Positions 45,284 to 51,907 of a stretch of DNA of 64,000 nt are shown here, piece by piece (the first letter of the stretch is position 1; each line of letters begins with the position of its first letter). The translations under genes and the position numbers were made by a program. The DNA comes from Lysobacter niastensis (GTDB lineage: Bacteria > Pseudomonadota > Gammaproteobacteria > Xanthomonadales > Xanthomonadaceae): positions 124,001 through 188,000 of the forward strand of contig NZ_JADLZT010000003.1 of NCBI RefSeq assembly GCF_015453285.1. The letters are read 5' to 3'. Under the pieces are notes generated by a model that did not search any database, had not been told where the DNA came from, and worked only from the letters and a program-made list of their open reading frames with translations.

Positions 45284-45373
45284 AGGCGATGGGGCGCAGC
45301 CCGCCCCTGATCGCCTCAACCCCATTCCCCATCCCCGCGCGTTCTCTCTCGCAACCCAACCGGAGAACGCCCG

Positions 45374-47197
45374 ATGAAACGCGAAGTCCGCACCGCCCCC
45401 GCACGCGCCGCGCTGTTCGTGGTCGTCCTGTCCGCGCTGTCGGCCTGCCAGACGGCGCGCCAAAGCGAAGCCGCCGCCGAAGCGGTAGAGCTGCGCAATG
45501 CGGCCGTCGCGGCGGCGGATGCTTCCGAATCCGAGGCATGGAGCCAGAACCGGGCGAGAGAGGCCGCTGCCACGCAGGCCGCCACCCGGCGACAAATGAA
45601 GCAGGCGCCAATGAAGGCGCTTGCCGCTCCTGCCGCGCCGTCGCCGCCACCACCGCCTGCCAGCTCCCTCGACATGATCACCGTCACCGGCGCGCGCATC
45701 GCCAGTGGCTACATGGCCATGCCGCAGCAGCCCGCCAACACGGAGAAGTACGCCGCACGCGAGGACAATCCGGTGCAGCGCGCGTCGGAACAGCCTGTGT
45801 CGACGTTCTCCATCGACGTCGATACCGGCAGCTACGCCAACGTGCGGCGCATGCTGGTGCAGGGCGAGCGCCCTCCGGCGGATGCAGTGCGAGCCGAGGA
45901 GTTCATCAACTACTTCGACTATGGCCACCCCGCCCCGGCCTCGCGCGAGACACCGTTCCGCGTGACGACCGAGCTGGCACCGGCGCCGTGGAATGCGAAG
46001 CGGCAGGTGCTGATGGTGGGCATCAAGGGCTACGACGTCCCCAAGGCCAAGCTGCCGCCGACGAACCTGGTGTTCCTGATCGACACATCCGGCTCGATGG
46101 ACGAGCCCGACAAGCTGCCGCTGGTGAAGGAATCCCTGCGCCAGCTGGTGCCGCAACTGCGCCGCGAGGATCGTGTCTCGATGGTGGTGTATGCCGGCAG
46201 CGCCGGACTGGTGCTGCCGCCGACGCCGGGCGACCGCCACGACGAGATCCTCTCCGCGCTCGACCGCCTCGAAGCCGGCGGCAGCACCAACGGCGGCGAC
46301 GGCATCCGCTTGGCCTACGCGATGGCGAAGCAGGCGTTCGTCCAGGGCGGCGTCAACCGGGTGATCCTGGCGACCGATGGCGACTTCAATGTCGGCACCG
46401 TGGACCAGGGGGCGTTGGAGACGCTGGTCGCTGACCAGCGCAAGAGTGGCGTGGCGCTGACCACGCTCGGCTTCGGCACCGGCAACTACAACGACGCAAT
46501 GGCCGAACGGCTGGCCGACGTCGGCGATGGCAACCACGCCTACATCGACAGCGTGCGCGAGGGACGCAAGGTACTGGTCGAGCAGATGGGCTCGACGCTG
46601 ATGACCATCGCCCGTGACGTGAAGGTGCAGATCGAGTTCAACCCTGCCCAGGTCGCGGAGTACCGGCTGATCGGCTACGAGAACCGCGTGCTGCGCAATG
46701 AGGACTTCGCCAACGATCGCGTCGACGCCGGCGATATTGGCGCCGGCCACGAAGTCACGGCGCTGTACGAGATCACACCGGCCGGATCGGATGCCACGCG
46801 CCTGCCTGCATTGCGCTATGGCGATTCGACGAGGCGGTCTGCCGCCTGCCAGGACAAGGGTTGCGAAGTCGCGACACTGCGCCTGCGCTACAAGCTGCCC
46901 ATGCAATCTCAGAGCACGCAATCCAACAGCCGCCTGATCGAAACGCCGATCCTGGCCTCGCAATTGGGAACGCGTCCGGGCAGCGCGCTTCGCTTCGCCA
47001 CCGCGGTGGCGGGCTTCGCCGACGCGCTGCGCGGCGGTACGGCGTTCGATGGCTGGAGCTGGCAGGCGATCGAGCGCGAGGCCCGCGCCGCGACCGCGAC
47101 CGATCCGCGCGGCGAGCGCGCCGAGTTCATCGAACTGGTCGAACAGGGACGCCGCCTGGTGAGCGGCAACACGGACGCGGCGATTTCGTCACGCTGA
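45374..47197 (+). CDS. VWA-domain lipoprotein (YfbK-like) with a TonB-box-like segment
   Basis: A 607-residue outer-envelope lipoprotein (lipobox LSAC, Cys25). An Ala-rich spacer and PPPPP stretch lead to SLDMITVTGARI (98-109), which resembles the TonB box and plug start of outer-membrane receptors. Then come the YfbK N-terminal domain (about 125-215, with PVSTFSIDVDTGSYANVRRML), the von Willebrand A domain (about 220-400, MIDAS in FLIDTSGSMDEP and TDGDFNVG) and a DUF3520-type C-terminus. VWA domains bind proteins through a metal ion. Function is unknown; the TonB-like segment is discussed under findings. ATG follows CGGAGAA. Confidence 0.9.
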   Translation: MKREVRTAPARAALFVVVLSALSACQTARQSEAAAEAVELRNAAVAAADASESEAWSQNRAREAAATQAATRRQMKQAPMKALAAPAAPSPPPPPASSLDMITVTGARIASGYMAMPQQPANTEKYAAREDNPVQRASEQPVSTFSIDVDTGSYANVRRMLVQGERPPADAVRAEEFINYFDYGHPAPASRETPFRVTTELAPAPWNAKRQVLMVGIKGYDVPKAKLPPTNLVFLIDTSGSMDEPDKLPLVKESLRQLVPQLRREDRVSMVVYAGSAGLVLPPTPGDRHDEILSALDRLEAGGSTNGGDGIRLAYAMAKQAFVQGGVNRVILATDGDFNVGTVDQGALETLVADQRKSGVALTTLGFGTGNYNDAMAERLADVGDGNHAYIDSVREGRKVLVEQMGSTLMTIARDVKVQIEFNPAQVAEYRLIGYENRVLRNEDFANDRVDAGDIGAGHEVTALYEITPAGSDATRLPALRYGDSTRRSAACQDKGCEVATLRLRYKLPMQSQSTQSNSRLIETPILASQLGTRPGSALRFATAVAGFADALRGGTAFDGWSWQAIEREARAATATDPRGERAEFIELVEQGRRLVSGNTDAAISSR

Positions 47198-47252: not shown

Positions 47253-50144
47253 TCAGGGCACCAGCGCCCGCACCAGCGCCGGATGGAAGTCTTCGGACGG
47301 CTGGCCGAACAGGAAGCCCTGTCCGTACGTGCACCCCAGCTCACGCAGGGCGTTGCGCTGGGCTTCGCTCTCGACGCCTTCGCCGATGGTGTGGATGCCC
47401 AGCGTACCGGCCAGCGCCTGGATCGCGCGGACCACGGCCACGCTCTCCGGCTGGGTTTCGCCGATCAAGCCGGCGACGAAGCTCTGGTCGATCTTCAGGC
47501 ACTCGATCGGGAACCGGTGCAGGTAGGACAGCGCCGAGAAACCGGTGCCGAAGTCGTCCAGCTGCGCCAGCACGCCGTGGCTGCGGAGCGTGCGCAGCAT
47601 GCGCAGCGCGCGCGGAACGTCGTCCAGCAACGCCACCTCGGTGATCTCGATGCGCAGGCGGTGCGGATCGGCGCCGGCGCGATCGATCATGCGCAGCAGG
47701 CGATCGGCGAAATCCGACGCCAGGAAATGGCGGGGCGAAACATTGACCGAGATGTAGCCGCTGTCGGTGCGGGCCAGCTGGTCGATCGCCTGCCGGTACA
47801 GCAGCCAGTCCACTTCCTCGATCAGGCCGCTGTCCTCACCCAGGCCGATGAAGTCGGCCGGCAACAGCAGGCCGCGACGCTCGTGGCGCCAGCGCAGCAG
47901 CGCCTCGTGGCCGATGATCTTGCGATCGTCGAGCCGCACGATCGGCTGGTAGAACGCGACGAAGCCGTCGACATTGATCGCGCGGCGCAGGTCGGCTTCG
48001 AGGTCGAGGATGCGCATCGCCTCCTCGCGCATCGCCTCGTCGAACACGGCGCAGCGGTCGCGTCCCGTCGACTTGGCCCGGTACATCGCGGCGTCGGCGT
48101 CGCGCAGCATCTCGGCACCGGAACGGTAGCGCGGATGCCATGCGGCGATGCCGATGCTGGCGGACGGAAACACCTCGCGGCCGGCGATCCAGCAAGGCTC
48201 GCCCAGCACCACGAGGATGCGTTGTGCCAGTTCTTCGACCGCGTGCAGGCCGTCGACCGCTTCGACCAGGATCGCGAACTCGTCGCCACCCAGTCGCGCC
48301 ACGGTATCGTCCGAACGCACGGCCGAGACGATGCGGCGCCCCGCTTCGATCAGCAGTTCGTCGCCGGCGGCATGGCCGACGCTGTCGTTGACCAGCTTGA
48401 AGCGATCCAGGTCGAGGAACAGCACCGCGAACAGTCCGCCCCTGTCCGCCCTGACGCGTTCGATCGCGGTGTTGAGGCGATCGAGCAGCTGCGCGCGGTT
48501 CGGCAGACCAGTCAGGGAATCGTGCAGCGCCTGATGGGTGAGCTGCTGCTCGGCACGCAGGCGCTCGCCGATCTGCGAGAGCAGCTCGGCATTGGCTTCG
48601 GCCAGCTCGCGCGTGCGCGCGGTCACGCGCTGCTCCAGTTCGGCATGCGCCGCCACCAGCCGGTCCTGCGATTGCTTGCGCGCCAAGCCGATGCTGATGT
48701 GGTGGGCGACGAAGGTCAGCAGTTCCTGGTCGCGCAGCGAGAACGAGATCGCCGCCGAGTAACTCTGTACCGCGATCACGCCCACCACCGCCTCGTTGCG
48801 GAACAGCGGCACGCCGAGCCAGCAGTGCGCGAGTGAGCCGCGGCTGCGCAGCAGCCCCTGGGCCTCGAGCATCGCGATGCGGTGGCGGTCGGCCAGCAGC
48901 GGGCGGCCCTGGCCGATCACGTACTCGGTCAGGCCCGAACCCAGCTTGCGGCTGTGGCGCACCGGGTCGCGCTCGTCGACCGAATACGGGAACTCGAGCC
49001 GCTCGCCGTCGTCGGTCAGCAACGCGATGTAGAAGTTGCGCGCGTAGAGCAGCTCGCCGACGACGTCATGGACCTGGGTATAGAAGCGTTCCAGCGTCTC
49101 GGACGTGATCGACAGCTCCGCAATGCGGAACAACGCGCGCTGCAGGCGTTCGGCGCGCTGGCGCTCGATGATCTCGGCCTGCAGGTCGCGGTTGCTCAGC
49201 TGCAGCGCCTGGGTGCGCTCCTCGACGCGGCGCTCGAGCTCTTCGCGTGCGCGGAAGCGGTCCAGCGCGGTAAGGATGTGTTGCGCGACGAAGGCGAGCA
49301 GCGCGCGTTCCTCGTCGCCGTAGATGCCAGCGCGATCGTAGCTCTGCACCACGAGTGCGCCGCAGACGCGGTCATCACGGCGCATCGGTACGCCCAGCCA
49401 GTCCTGGGCCTCCGGTCCGTGCGCGATGTCGTCGCCAATCTCCAGCCGCTCACGGATGGCCTCGGAGGAACCGATCAGCGGCTCGCCGTGGCGCAGCAGC
49501 GCGAGCGTCAGGCTGTTGGGCATCTCGTCGACGGGAATCTCGCGATCGGGCTCGGCCACGTAAGTGTCGATGCGGTCGGCGAAATACAGGAAGCGCAGGC
49601 TGTCGCGAACATCGTCGTACAGCACGATGTAGAAATTTTCGGCGAACATCAGTCCGCCGACGACGCGGTGGATGCGGCCGAGCATGTCCCGCATTTCCAG
49701 GTCCGAGCCCGCCAGGTCGGCGATCTCGTACAGCGCCTGCTGCAGGCGTTCGGACTTTTCCAGCGATTCGACGCGGCACTGGGCCCGGACCGCGGCGAGT
49801 TCGGCCGCGACCAGGCGCTGCGCCATGGTCATCCAGGCCTCGCGCGAGGATGCCGTCAGCGGCTCAGCCGACCACGCCGCAATCGCCGCGCGCGCACCGT
49901 CATCGAATGTCCATGCGGTGGCGAGACGCTGCGGATGTTCGACGGCATCGGCGCCGTGCAGCAGTTGTTCCGCCAGTTGCGGCATGCCGTCGCCGGCCGC
50001 TCCCGAGACCGAGCCGGCCGACCCATGGCCGCCTTCGCGCCAGCCAACCGCCACCTGCGAGCCGTCGGGCAGGGTCTGCTGCAGGGTGCGGGCCAGGGCG
50101 TCGACGCAGACCGCCTCCCGTTCCCTGCCGCTTGCCATCTGCAT
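47253..50144 (-). CDS. GAF-GAF-GGDEF-EAL cyclic-di-GMP protein
   Basis: A protein of 963 residues from ATG at 50144. Two GAF sensor domains (about 140-290 and 325-480) share the pattern LMFAENFYIVLYDD / LLYARNFYIALLTDD and WLGVP. Each is preceded by a helical linker. The GGDEF domain (about 535-695) has an intact RLGGDEFAIL motif and the RSDD inhibitory site. The EAL domain (about 705-955) keeps EALLRW, and later DDFGTGFSALSYL and KIDQSF. Both activities may be functional, and the ligand-bound GAF domains would set the balance. No membrane segment is seen. ATG at 50138 is an alternative start. Confidence 0.92.
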   Translation of the reverse strand: MQMASGREREAVCVDALARTLQQTLPDGSQVAVGWREGGHGSAGSVSGAAGDGMPQLAEQLLHGADAVEHPQRLATAWTFDDGARAAIAAWSAEPLTASSREAWMTMAQRLVAAELAAVRAQCRVESLEKSERLQQALYEIADLAGSDLEMRDMLGRIHRVVGGLMFAENFYIVLYDDVRDSLRFLYFADRIDTYVAEPDREIPVDEMPNSLTLALLRHGEPLIGSSEAIRERLEIGDDIAHGPEAQDWLGVPMRRDDRVCGALVVQSYDRAGIYGDEERALLAFVAQHILTALDRFRAREELERRVEERTQALQLSNRDLQAEIIERQRAERLQRALFRIAELSITSETLERFYTQVHDVVGELLYARNFYIALLTDDGERLEFPYSVDERDPVRHSRKLGSGLTEYVIGQGRPLLADRHRIAMLEAQGLLRSRGSLAHCWLGVPLFRNEAVVGVIAVQSYSAAISFSLRDQELLTFVAHHISIGLARKQSQDRLVAAHAELEQRVTARTRELAEANAELLSQIGERLRAEQQLTHQALHDSLTGLPNRAQLLDRLNTAIERVRADRGGLFAVLFLDLDRFKLVNDSVGHAAGDELLIEAGRRIVSAVRSDDTVARLGGDEFAILVEAVDGLHAVEELAQRILVVLGEPCWIAGREVFPSASIGIAAWHPRYRSGAEMLRDADAAMYRAKSTGRDRCAVFDEAMREEAMRILDLEADLRRAINVDGFVAFYQPIVRLDDRKIIGHEALLRWRHERRGLLLPADFIGLGEDSGLIEEVDWLLYRQAIDQLARTDSGYISVNVSPRHFLASDFADRLLRMIDRAGADPHRLRIEITEVALLDDVPRALRMLRTLRSHGVLAQLDDFGTGFSALSYLHRFPIECLKIDQSFVAGLIGETQPESVAVVRAIQALAGTLGIHTIGEGVESEAQRNALRELGCTYGQGFLFGQPSEDFHPALVRALVP

Positions 50145-50339
50145 ACCAGCCCTGTGCACTGCTCGCCCCCGTTGCGAATCCGCAGCATACCGTGATGATC
50201 GCCCCGGTATGTTCAACCCCGTCACACCCCGGCGGCCGTTGATCAGAACATGGAAATGATCATCAAGGGAGGGGCGCCATTCCATACGGGCGCCCCCGGC
50301 GGCTTCACCTGGCCCTCGCCAACCCGTAACCTGCCCCGG

Positions 50340-50894
50340 ATGAATTCGGCAGCGGACGCAAGCGACGACGTATTGATGCTGGCCTGGTCGGCCGGCGACG
50401 CGTCCGCCTTCGAACTGCTGTACGCCCGCCACCGCGGCCCCCTGTACAGGTTCCTGCTCCGCCAGGTGCGCGACAACGCGTTGGCCGACGAGTTCTTCCA
50501 GGACGTCTGGCAGCGGGTGATCGCTGCCCGCCACGGCTGGAAGCCGGACGCCGCATTCAGTACCTGGCTTTACCGGATCGCCCACAATCGCCTGAACGAC
50601 CACTGGCGGGCGCTCAAGCACCGGCCGCCAGCCCCCGAGGATGGCGACGAGCGCGCCGCCCGGGTCCCCGACCCCGCCACGCCCGAGCGCGAGCTGTCGG
50701 AGTTCGAACAGCGCCGCCGCCTGCAACGGGCGATCGAGGAATTGCCCGAGGACCAGCGCGAGGCGGTGTTGCTGCGCCTGGAACAGGAATTGAGCCTGGA
50801 GGAGATCGGCGCCATCACCGGCGTCGGACGCGAGACCGTCAAATCACGGCTTCGCTACGCCCTCGACAAGCTGCGCGCGAGACTGACCGAATGA
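50340..50894 (+). CDS. ECF-type RNA polymerase sigma factor
   Basis: A 184-residue sigma-70 family protein with region 2 (about 15-85: FELLYARHRGPLYRFLLRQ, DEFFQDVWQRVI, FSTWLYRIAHNRLNDHWR) and region 4 (about 120-180: LPEDQREAVLLRLEQELSLEEIGAI then GRETVKSRLRYALDKLRARL). It should direct transcription of a small regulon, typically including its own operon, when released by the anti-sigma factor encoded next. I chose ATG at 50340; an in-frame ATG at 50250 would add 30 atypical residues. The stop overlaps the anti-sigma ATG (ATGA). Confidence 0.93.
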   Translation: MNSAADASDDVLMLAWSAGDASAFELLYARHRGPLYRFLLRQVRDNALADEFFQDVWQRVIAARHGWKPDAAFSTWLYRIAHNRLNDHWRALKHRPPAPEDGDERAARVPDPATPERELSEFEQRRRLQRAIEELPEDQREAVLLRLEQELSLEEIGAITGVGRETVKSRLRYALDKLRARLTE

Positions 50895-51907
50895 ACCATC
50901 CCCGCCACGAACCGCTGACGCCGGAAGAGCGCGCGCTGGCCGAGCGCCTGGCGCGGATCGGCCCGCACGCCGACGGCCCGCCGCCAGCGCTCGACGCCCG
51001 CATCCTCGCCGCCGCGCATGCCGCCGTGGCCGTGGAGCCTCGCCGACGCCGCTGGCTGGCCCTGACCGGGGTGCCGGCCAGCCTGATCACGGGGGCCGGC
51101 ATGGCCGCGGCGCTGGCGCTGGTCGTCGGCGTGGTCTGGCAGATGCAACCGGCCTCGGGGCCGGTGCGCGCGCCCAAGGGCGAGACCGCCGACATGGGCT
51201 ATGTCAGCGCCGAGATGATCCGGCGCGAACGCGCGCCCGCTCCGCCACCGCCGCCTCCGCCGCCGGAAGCTCCCGCCGCGCCAGCGCTCGCAGTCGAGCC
51301 CCCGGCCCCGCGCAAGGCGCTGACGCCGCCCGCCGAGGCCCGGCGCGAGGCCGCCACGCCGCAGGCCGCTGCGGCACCGGCACAGGCCGCCAACGTGGCC
51401 GAGGACGCCTATCTGGACGAAGCCGTCGTCGATGCACCGGCGCCCGCGGCTCCGGCCGGTTACTCCCGTCAGCACCGGACGCCGCCTGCCGGTGCGATGG
51501 CACCGGCGCCGGCGTCCGCGCCGTCGATGGCGAGTCCGGCAGCGGATGAACCTCGCTTCGTGCCGGCTCCGCCCGCGCCACCGGCGCCTGCCGCCGCGAT
51601 GGCGCAGCGCAAGGCCGTCGCGATCGAAGCCGAATCCCGGGCCAAAGCCGCCGCAGCCGAGGAAGACGCTTCCAAACAGTCGCTGGACACCATCACCGTA
51701 ACCGGTTCGCGCATCCGCATGACCGATATCCCGCCGCGCGACGATGCCCGCCTCTCGCCGGATGACTGGCTCGAGCGCATTCGCCAGCGCCGCGATGACG
51801 GCGACCTGGACGGCGCACGTACCAGCCTGATGCTGTTCCGCCGCGAGCACCCGCATCGCCGTGTGCCGGATGGCCTGCGCGCCCTGCCCGCCGGGCCGGA
51901 GCGATGA
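50891..51907 (+). CDS. Putative transmembrane anti-sigma factor with TonB-box-like segment
   Basis: A 338-residue protein coupled to the sigma gene by ATGA. A short cytoplasmic part (about 1-58, helical, with no zinc HxxxCxxC) precedes one membrane helix (about 62-84, SLITGAGMAAALALVVGVVW). A long Ala/Pro-rich periplasmic region follows (90-255, with a run of eight prolines), which could span peptidoglycan. Then comes SLDTITVTGSRI (264-275), which resembles a TonB box, and a helical C-terminus with DDWLERIRQRRDDGDLDGAR. The anti-sigma role is inferred from position and topology. Its stop overlaps the next ATG by four bases. Confidence 0.8.
   Translation: MNHPRHEPLTPEERALAERLARIGPHADGPPPALDARILAAAHAAVAVEPRRRRWLALTGVPASLITGAGMAAALALVVGVVWQMQPASGPVRAPKGETADMGYVSAEMIRRERAPAPPPPPPPPEAPAAPALAVEPPAPRKALTPPAEARREAATPQAAAAPAQAANVAEDAYLDEAVVDAPAPAAPAGYSRQHRTPPAGAMAPAPASAPSMASPAADEPRFVPAPPAPPAPAAAMAQRKAVAIEAESRAKAAAAEEDASKQSLDTITVTGSRIRMTDIPPRDDARLSPDDWLERIRQRRDDGDLDGARTSLMLFRREHPHRRVPDGLRALPAGPER

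Follow-up and report, generated by a model that had tools for sequence, protein, structure and literature searches.

Among the described systems, cell-surface signalling of the FecIRA/FoxIRA type brings together the TonB system, an ECF sigma factor and an anti-sigma factor that crosses the membrane once and has a periplasmic region (PMC11637429, PMC9249621; available sections). According to the first of these sources, in the sections available, the TonB box of the Fec and Fox systems is found on the receptor, and it is a signalling-type receptor that contacts the anti-sigma factor (PMC11637429). The Has system of Serratia (HasI/HasS/HasR) also has an ECF/anti-sigma locus, and its operon includes the TonB paralogue HasB (PMC9249621, in part). 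In PUMA3/VreAIR of Pseudomonas aeruginosa, a barrel-less receptor-like component with a predicted TonB box is part of an ECF system (PMC2729926, in part). In contrast to FecIRA/FoxIRA, the locus of Lysobacter niastensis considered here has the box on the putative anti-sigma factor itself, a protein with no FecR domain. Within the literature that we searched, as far as its text was available and with subscription papers lying outside the search, no anti-sigma factor with a TonB box was described.

The locus is part of a window of 64,000 nucleotides, which is the whole stretch of DNA that was analysed (Table 1). The product of the first gene of the pair matched Sigma70_r2/r4 (Pfam) and PRK12513 (NCBIfam, E=2e-73), and the stop codon of this gene is overlapped by the ATG of the gene that follows. 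In the protein encoded by the second gene, a conserved N-terminal region leads into an Arg-rich stretch on the N-side of the transmembrane helix, followed by the helix itself (pairwise identity of 0.85 within the genus), a stretch rich in Pro and Ala and, at the C-terminus, a small domain. The original prediction had described a protein with one membrane helix and no barrel, and this is what we found, with a single transmembrane helix and no Pfam family in the protein. Because no Pfam or NCBIfam model matched, FecR included, its designation as an anti-sigma factor is based on gene order, the one transmembrane helix and topology, and is putative. A PDB sequence search with the protein found no relative, and a Foldseek search with its AF2 model gave nothing significant, the C-terminal domain having only non-significant TPR-like matches. 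The locus nevertheless has what is expected of an ECF sigma/anti-sigma pair, namely an ECF sigma factor, an overlapping gene for a membrane protein and a promoter signature of its own, and the pair would probably be autoregulated. No receptor was seen by eye beside the pair among the listed ORFs, and the two motif sites of the window are not receptors.

Table 1. Features of the sigma/anti-sigma locus and of the vWA lipoprotein gene, in window positions
Feature	Position	Strand	Basis or remark
ECF-type promoter signature before vWA lipoprotein gene	45317..45343	+	
vWA/YfbK-like lipoprotein gene	45374..47197	+	vWF_A, VWA, YfbK_C (Pfam)
Second TonB-box-like peptide, SLDMITVTGARI	45665..45700	+	Pro/Ala linker of vWA lipoprotein
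ECF-type promoter signature CAACCCC-N16-CGTT before sigma/anti-sigma pair	50214..50240	+	
ECF sigma factor gene, PRK12513 type	50340..50894	+	ORF end 50894; Pfam, NCBIfam
Putative single-pass anti-sigma factor gene, 338 aa	50891..51907	+	ATGA overlap with sigma gene
Transmembrane segment, residues 62-86	51074..51148	+	Sequence; AF2 helix 69-84
TonB-box/plug-start peptide SLDTITVTGSRI, residues 264-275	51680..51715	+	
C-terminal conserved helical domain, residues 282-332	51734..51886	+	AF2 pLDDT about 95

Relatives of the anti-sigma family were recovered by an alignment-based scan of genome contigs; a scan with the single sequence returned none. The Stenotrophomonas system Smlt3514/rpoP was considered as an orthologous system but not retained; the proteins encoded downstream of it have 177 and 293 aa. 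An in-frame ATG is located at 50250, 9 nt past the CGTT of the promoter (window 50240-50342), and the same is seen in several relatives, so that the sigma mRNA may be near-leaderless and its product may have a 30-residue extension. The interval separating the vWA gene from the sigma gene holds a long ORF of opposite orientation (47253-50726, minus strand) that was judged by eye to be GAF-, GGDEF- and EAL-like.

The TonB-box-like peptide that had been predicted at residues 264-275 is present there. Its LDTITVTG follows the TonB-box pattern D-x-hydrophobic-x-V-(T/S), although what comes next is a small predicted helical domain instead of a plug and barrel, and the protein, having neither a Plug domain nor a beta-barrel, is not a TonB-dependent receptor. 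A DNA pattern for D-x-hydrophobic-x-V-T-G-(S/T)-R had seven sites genome-wide and none in the reversed-pattern control. These seven sites belong to five TonB-dependent receptors (four confirmed by Pfam Plug and the fifth, L036, by eye), the anti-sigma factor and an alpha-2-macroglobulin-like protein. The original prediction had made its case depend on conservation in close orthologues, and the motif LD-x-(I/V)-x-V-(T/S)-G is kept in 10 of 11 same-genus orthologues, the exception being that of genome G008; the G003 and G006 orthologues keep it without the Arg of GSR. Conservation extends beyond the classical TonB box into GSR(I/L). In the family as a whole, the strict motif LD.h.V[TS]G was found in 31 of 62 distinct members and a looser pattern in 36, a count that omits duplicates and 18 loci without one end domain (contig ends or diverged). 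Even the loose motif is absent from 26 of the 62, same-genus G008 among them. The motif occurs, among others, in records named as Lysobacter, Pseudoxanthomonas and Luteimonas, and two of three Stenotrophomonas loci (L089 and L093) read (L/M)DR(V/I)EITSM, the third (L088) being without the motif. When the periplasmic stretches of the 62 members were shuffled (2000 rounds), the strict motif never appeared and the loose one averaged 0.2 of 62, with a maximum of 3. The presence of the motif in this family is not due to chance.

Mean pairwise identity among eight same-genus sequences was 0.86 in the motif (residues 265-273), 0.67 in the C-terminal domain and 0.47 in the linker (residues 92-255), and the synonymous:nonsynonymous codon differences in the same sequences were 96:35, 280:471 and 881:1895 respectively. 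The eight come from twelve genus sequences, with L002 and L012 (missing from the alignment), L010 (a near copy) and L008 (no motif) left out. Purifying selection acts on the motif, and the linker is far less conserved. An AF2 model made with 19 aligned orthologues had a mean pLDDT of 62.9 and a pTM of 0.31; residues 264-275 showed no secondary structure (pLDDT about 50-72), and the motif is located less than 10 residues before the predicted helical domain (about 282-330 in the model). Burial in a folded strand would have made the peptide inaccessible to TonB, and the model instead puts it in an unstructured linker before the folded C-terminal domain. The peptide is thus predicted to be flexible and exposed to the periplasm.

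A longer version of the peptide points to where it came from. In the anti-sigma factor of G026, a 36-residue segment matched receptor N-termini with an E value of about 5e-10. Because this segment aligns with the receptor plug start, with 76% identity over 33 aa to receptors in G000 and G001, descent of the anti-sigma segment from the TonB-box/plug start of a receptor is supported by the sequence comparison. The Pfam Plug domain came directly after the motif in all 10 receptor matches tested. Longer plug-like versions were found in G026, L044 and L045 and in the vWA protein of G036. A peptide search of three genomes returned mainly receptor-length frames, the other matches being proteins of the anti-sigma family and vWA, alpha-2-macroglobulin, VIT/DUF2135 and beta-propeller proteins. 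The peptide occurs in six unrelated non-receptor protein families, each in at least one genome.

Some of these other carriers can be described further. The alpha-2-macroglobulin-like protein (bMG10, A2M, MG2; L121:3465-9170, minus strand) has STVLDRIEVTGSRIRAVDLES in a Pro-rich linker, with the motif site at G000:C8:484158-484183, and its matches in G001, G022 and G025 bear the peptide too. Linker peptides were also seen in a beta-propeller protein (PF09826; L158:1111-3213, plus strand), in VIT/DUF2135 proteins (L161/L295, G026:C3) and in a DUF4139 protein (L221:568-2382, minus strand).

Two findings go beyond the original prediction, a second copy of the peptide in the vWA lipoprotein of the same window and an ECF promoter signature common to both genes. 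The vWA gene is about 5 kb upstream of the sigma pair, with similar spacing for example in G000, G001, G005, G009, G016 and G026, and is more distant or on a separate contig in other genomes; PF12450 was present in 35 of 59 relatives. The motif was found in 12 of 30 vWA loci by the strict pattern and in 17 by a looser core pattern. With a core pattern looser than that of the 62-member count, the motif was present in both proteins in 21 of 28 genomes, in neither in six, in the vWA protein only in one and in the anti-sigma factor only in none (Fisher p=1.9e-5, kinship ignored). Two of the six genomes with neither were partly read (the anti-sigma factor in G027 and the vWA protein in L101), and without them the value is p=3.3e-4, again with kinship ignored. 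The comparison used 28 of 31 rows, L047, L078 and L087 having no readable anti-sigma part, and it omits named loci duplicating G genomes, L051, L058, L070 and L080 (vWA ends at the flank), G007 (no vWA) and G011 (a near copy of G005).

The form of the motif was also compared between the two proteins. Identities within genomes were 162 of 231 versus a permuted mean of 140 (p=5e-5, kinship ignored), and the same form is seen in both proteins where the Arg is lost (G003 and G006), where LD is missing (G016) and where the motif reads LDQ...GT (G023). Only three pairs that were independent on a tree of the sigma factors were usable, with 2.7 concordant on average and 0 opposite (p=0.25). Recent gene conversion between the anti-sigma and vWA genes was considered as the sole cause of this agreement and rejected, because in three of four pairs the Ser codon class differs at the same residue between the two genes while the residue is kept (the G031 row was read by eye); gene conversion is therefore not the whole explanation. 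In another family of the order, the vWA/YfbK proteins L130 (G036) and L140 (G047) bear the peptide, that of L130 with a long plug-like extension, GSRIQRVDMESAMPV.

The exact site of the promoter signature is present before the sigma gene in all 12 genus genomes and in 6 of 14 other genomes with an anti-sigma match, and the exact CAACCCC-N16-CGTT sites in the 12 genus genomes numbered 63 versus 10 in the control. Where the sequence behind a site was read, the genes that follow encode the sigma pair, the vWA lipoprotein, SIMPL/DUF541, DUF4349, DUF4139 and VIT/DUF2135 proteins, a VDRDSGQW-type protein and TonB; these assignments come from Pfam for a single member of every named class and from inspection by eye for its other members. 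A number of sites fall within genes or stand ahead of ORFs that have no relation to the regulon (e.g. L163, L167, L168, L203 and L253). For the sites of the other-order genomes with loci retrieved, tblastn with TonB, SIMPL and TPR queries gave no matches. From the pattern, this signature probably belongs to the PRK12513-type sigma factor. The VIT/DUF2135 and DUF4139 carriers of the peptide both sit behind it, with SLDRVEVTGSRL in the former (G026) and SDRVEVTGARR in the latter (G007). A recurrent protein of the regulon, of about 247-276 aa, reads VDRDSGQW...GTPGHRY...VVLSVDGVNA (L234 at G000:C13:46456, L207, L218, L225, L232, L235, L252, L254, L271 and L278), and the one member run, L234, had no Pfam match.

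The anti-sigma protein is present in 26 genomes, and in 18 of them (G001-G010, G013, G021, G023, G027, G030, G031, G032 and G034) the exact site was read directly before tonB or before a TPR gene followed by tonB. The G011 site is assigned to tonB through its identity to the G005 site, the surroundings in G011 lying outside the data read. A site with one mismatch (TAACCCC) precedes tonB in G000, G016 and G026, and in G000, which is the L. niastensis genome itself, the tonB and SIMPL sites each have this mismatch. In G017 a site was found only before the SIMPL gene that immediately precedes tonB, and for G019, G029 and G033 no tonB link was found. Of the promoter-linked TonB proteins, 13 have a TonB_C domain according to Pfam, and the others were matched by tblastn. 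The L. niastensis genome has 12 TonB_C matches and, in the stretches scanned, a promoter-like site before only the SIMPL-linked one; there was no site in the TPR-tonB stretch or in the five receptor loci scanned, and none before a gene in the alpha-2-macroglobulin locus. The SIMPL/DUF541 gene adjoins tonB, often with each having its own signature (L231:266-2013 and orthologous loci; L250 in the L. niastensis genome).

A strict correlation between the presence of the box and the tonB promoter was sought and not found; seven genomes with a box-less anti-sigma factor keep the exact tonB site (G008, G013, G021, G027, G030, G032 and G034; the G027 anti-sigma gene runs off its contig and only the last part was read). 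Because these seven genomes retain the site, control of tonB by the sigma factor would not need the box. The TonB reading of the original prediction is kept in outline and has gained two elements, the receptor origin of the peptide by homology and a link to TonB through a promoter signature in common with tonB; its two specific forms, pulling by TonB and titration of TonB, are considered below.

Computation established the motif, its conservation, its derivation from a receptor and the promoter signature in common. Taken together they suggest a receptor-free ECF circuit, in which the anti-sigma factor would dock TonB and the regulon would include tonB and TonB-box lipoproteins; we give this reading a probability of about 0.5. 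The inner-membrane anti-sigma factor would have a flexible periplasmic tether bearing a real TonB box that came from a TonB-dependent receptor, and the sigma factor, judging from the promoters, would drive its own operon, the vWA/YfbK lipoprotein, the SIMPL protein, a lipoprotein-like protein and tonB. Within this circuit, we infer the binding of TonB, the release by proteolysis and the direction of the feedback. The anti-sigma factor may report the amount of free TonB. TonB on the box would protect the anti-sigma factor, while loaded receptors or a shortage of TonB would leave the box empty, and the adjacent C-terminal domain might then be open to proteolysis with release of the sigma factor, resulting in more TonB and more box-bearing partners. 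The form that we favour is therefore the sensing of TonB supply by negative feedback. The seven box-less genomes with a tonB promoter count against tight coupling or a simple loop.

Perhaps the motif is instead a conserved beta-strand docking peptide whose partner is not TonB but another periplasmic protein that also meets the N-termini of receptors, such as a chaperone, protease or assembly factor, or a scaffold common with the vWA lipoprotein. The co-variation of its presence and form between the anti-sigma factor and the vWA lipoprotein would fit such a partner, as would the conservation past the classical box into GSR(I/L) and the persistence of the tonB promoter in box-less genomes. However, the peptide is the TonB box of receptors itself, the same signature stands before tonB, and TonB is to our knowledge the only well-established ligand of a TonB-box peptide, so we consider a different partner possible but rather unlikely. 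TonB as ligand of the box is discussed for FoxA (PMC11637429, in the sections available). It is also conceivable that the peptide does nothing, being a receptor fragment dropped by recombination into a low-complexity linker. The plug-like extensions described above do show receptor ancestry, the linker varies in sequence and the motif has a patchy distribution, but purifying selection on the motif, the switch of Ser codon class with the residue kept in three of four gene pairs and the co-variation with the vWA protein all speak against this explanation, which we disfavour as quite improbable.

The two mechanisms of the original prediction accept TonB as the partner. One has TonB pull on the box with ExbBD energy so that the C-terminal domain unfolds and the sigma factor is released, and the short predicted distance from the box to the folded domain resembles the way in which a receptor box precedes the plug. 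Yet each partner has its anchor in the inner membrane, and tension would therefore require the C-terminal domain to be fixed to an anchor further out, of which none is known. If active TonB triggered the release and more TonB were made as a result, the feedback would moreover be positive; we regard pulling as unlikely. The other makes the peptide a decoy that titrates TonB. Its spread over six unrelated non-receptor families could be read in this way, but few copies of an anti-sigma factor are to be expected in comparison with receptors and a decoy leaves the promoter common with tonB unexplained, which makes titration the most doubtful of the explanations considered.

The described targets of TonB are outer-membrane receptors and imported bacteriocins with a TonB box. 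Going further than the circuit as such, we tentatively propose, as something that may well prove wrong, that an ECF sigma factor controls tonB together with envelope proteins having receptor-derived boxes, that TonB serves as a general periplasmic docking hub, and that its supply is measured through the box of the anti-sigma factor. If this is true, the anti-sigma factor, the vWA/YfbK lipoprotein and the VIT/DUF2135, DUF4139, alpha-2-macroglobulin and beta-propeller proteins would be non-receptor clients of TonB. The existence of inner-membrane and lipoprotein clients would mean that the functions of the Ton system go beyond uptake, and a cell in which numerous receptors compete for a small number of TonB molecules could sense and correct its TonB supply.

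HasS of Serratia is FecR-like and signals through HasR (PMC9249621, in part), and in the sections of this source that were available there is no mention of a TonB box on HasS. The predicted box of VreA is located in a helix within its own signalling domain and not, like the present one, on the anti-sigma factor (PMC2729926, in part); in the available part of the same source, the VreI-regulated genes include exbB2/exbD2 and no tonB was seen. TonB-dependent receptors of Lysobacter have the same kind of peptide at the plug start, whereas the anti-sigma protein has no plug or barrel to go with it. For one such receptor, TBDR7 of L. enzymogenes, a version with Val replaced by Ala in its TonB box failed to complement the mutant and restore HSAF production (PMC4886534, in part). 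Finally, although the Glt carriers of Myxococcus are predicted outer-membrane barrels and not an anti-sigma factor, the Agl-Glt machinery to which they belong resembles the Lysobacter locus in having possible TonB boxes outside nutrient receptors (PMC5349195, in part).
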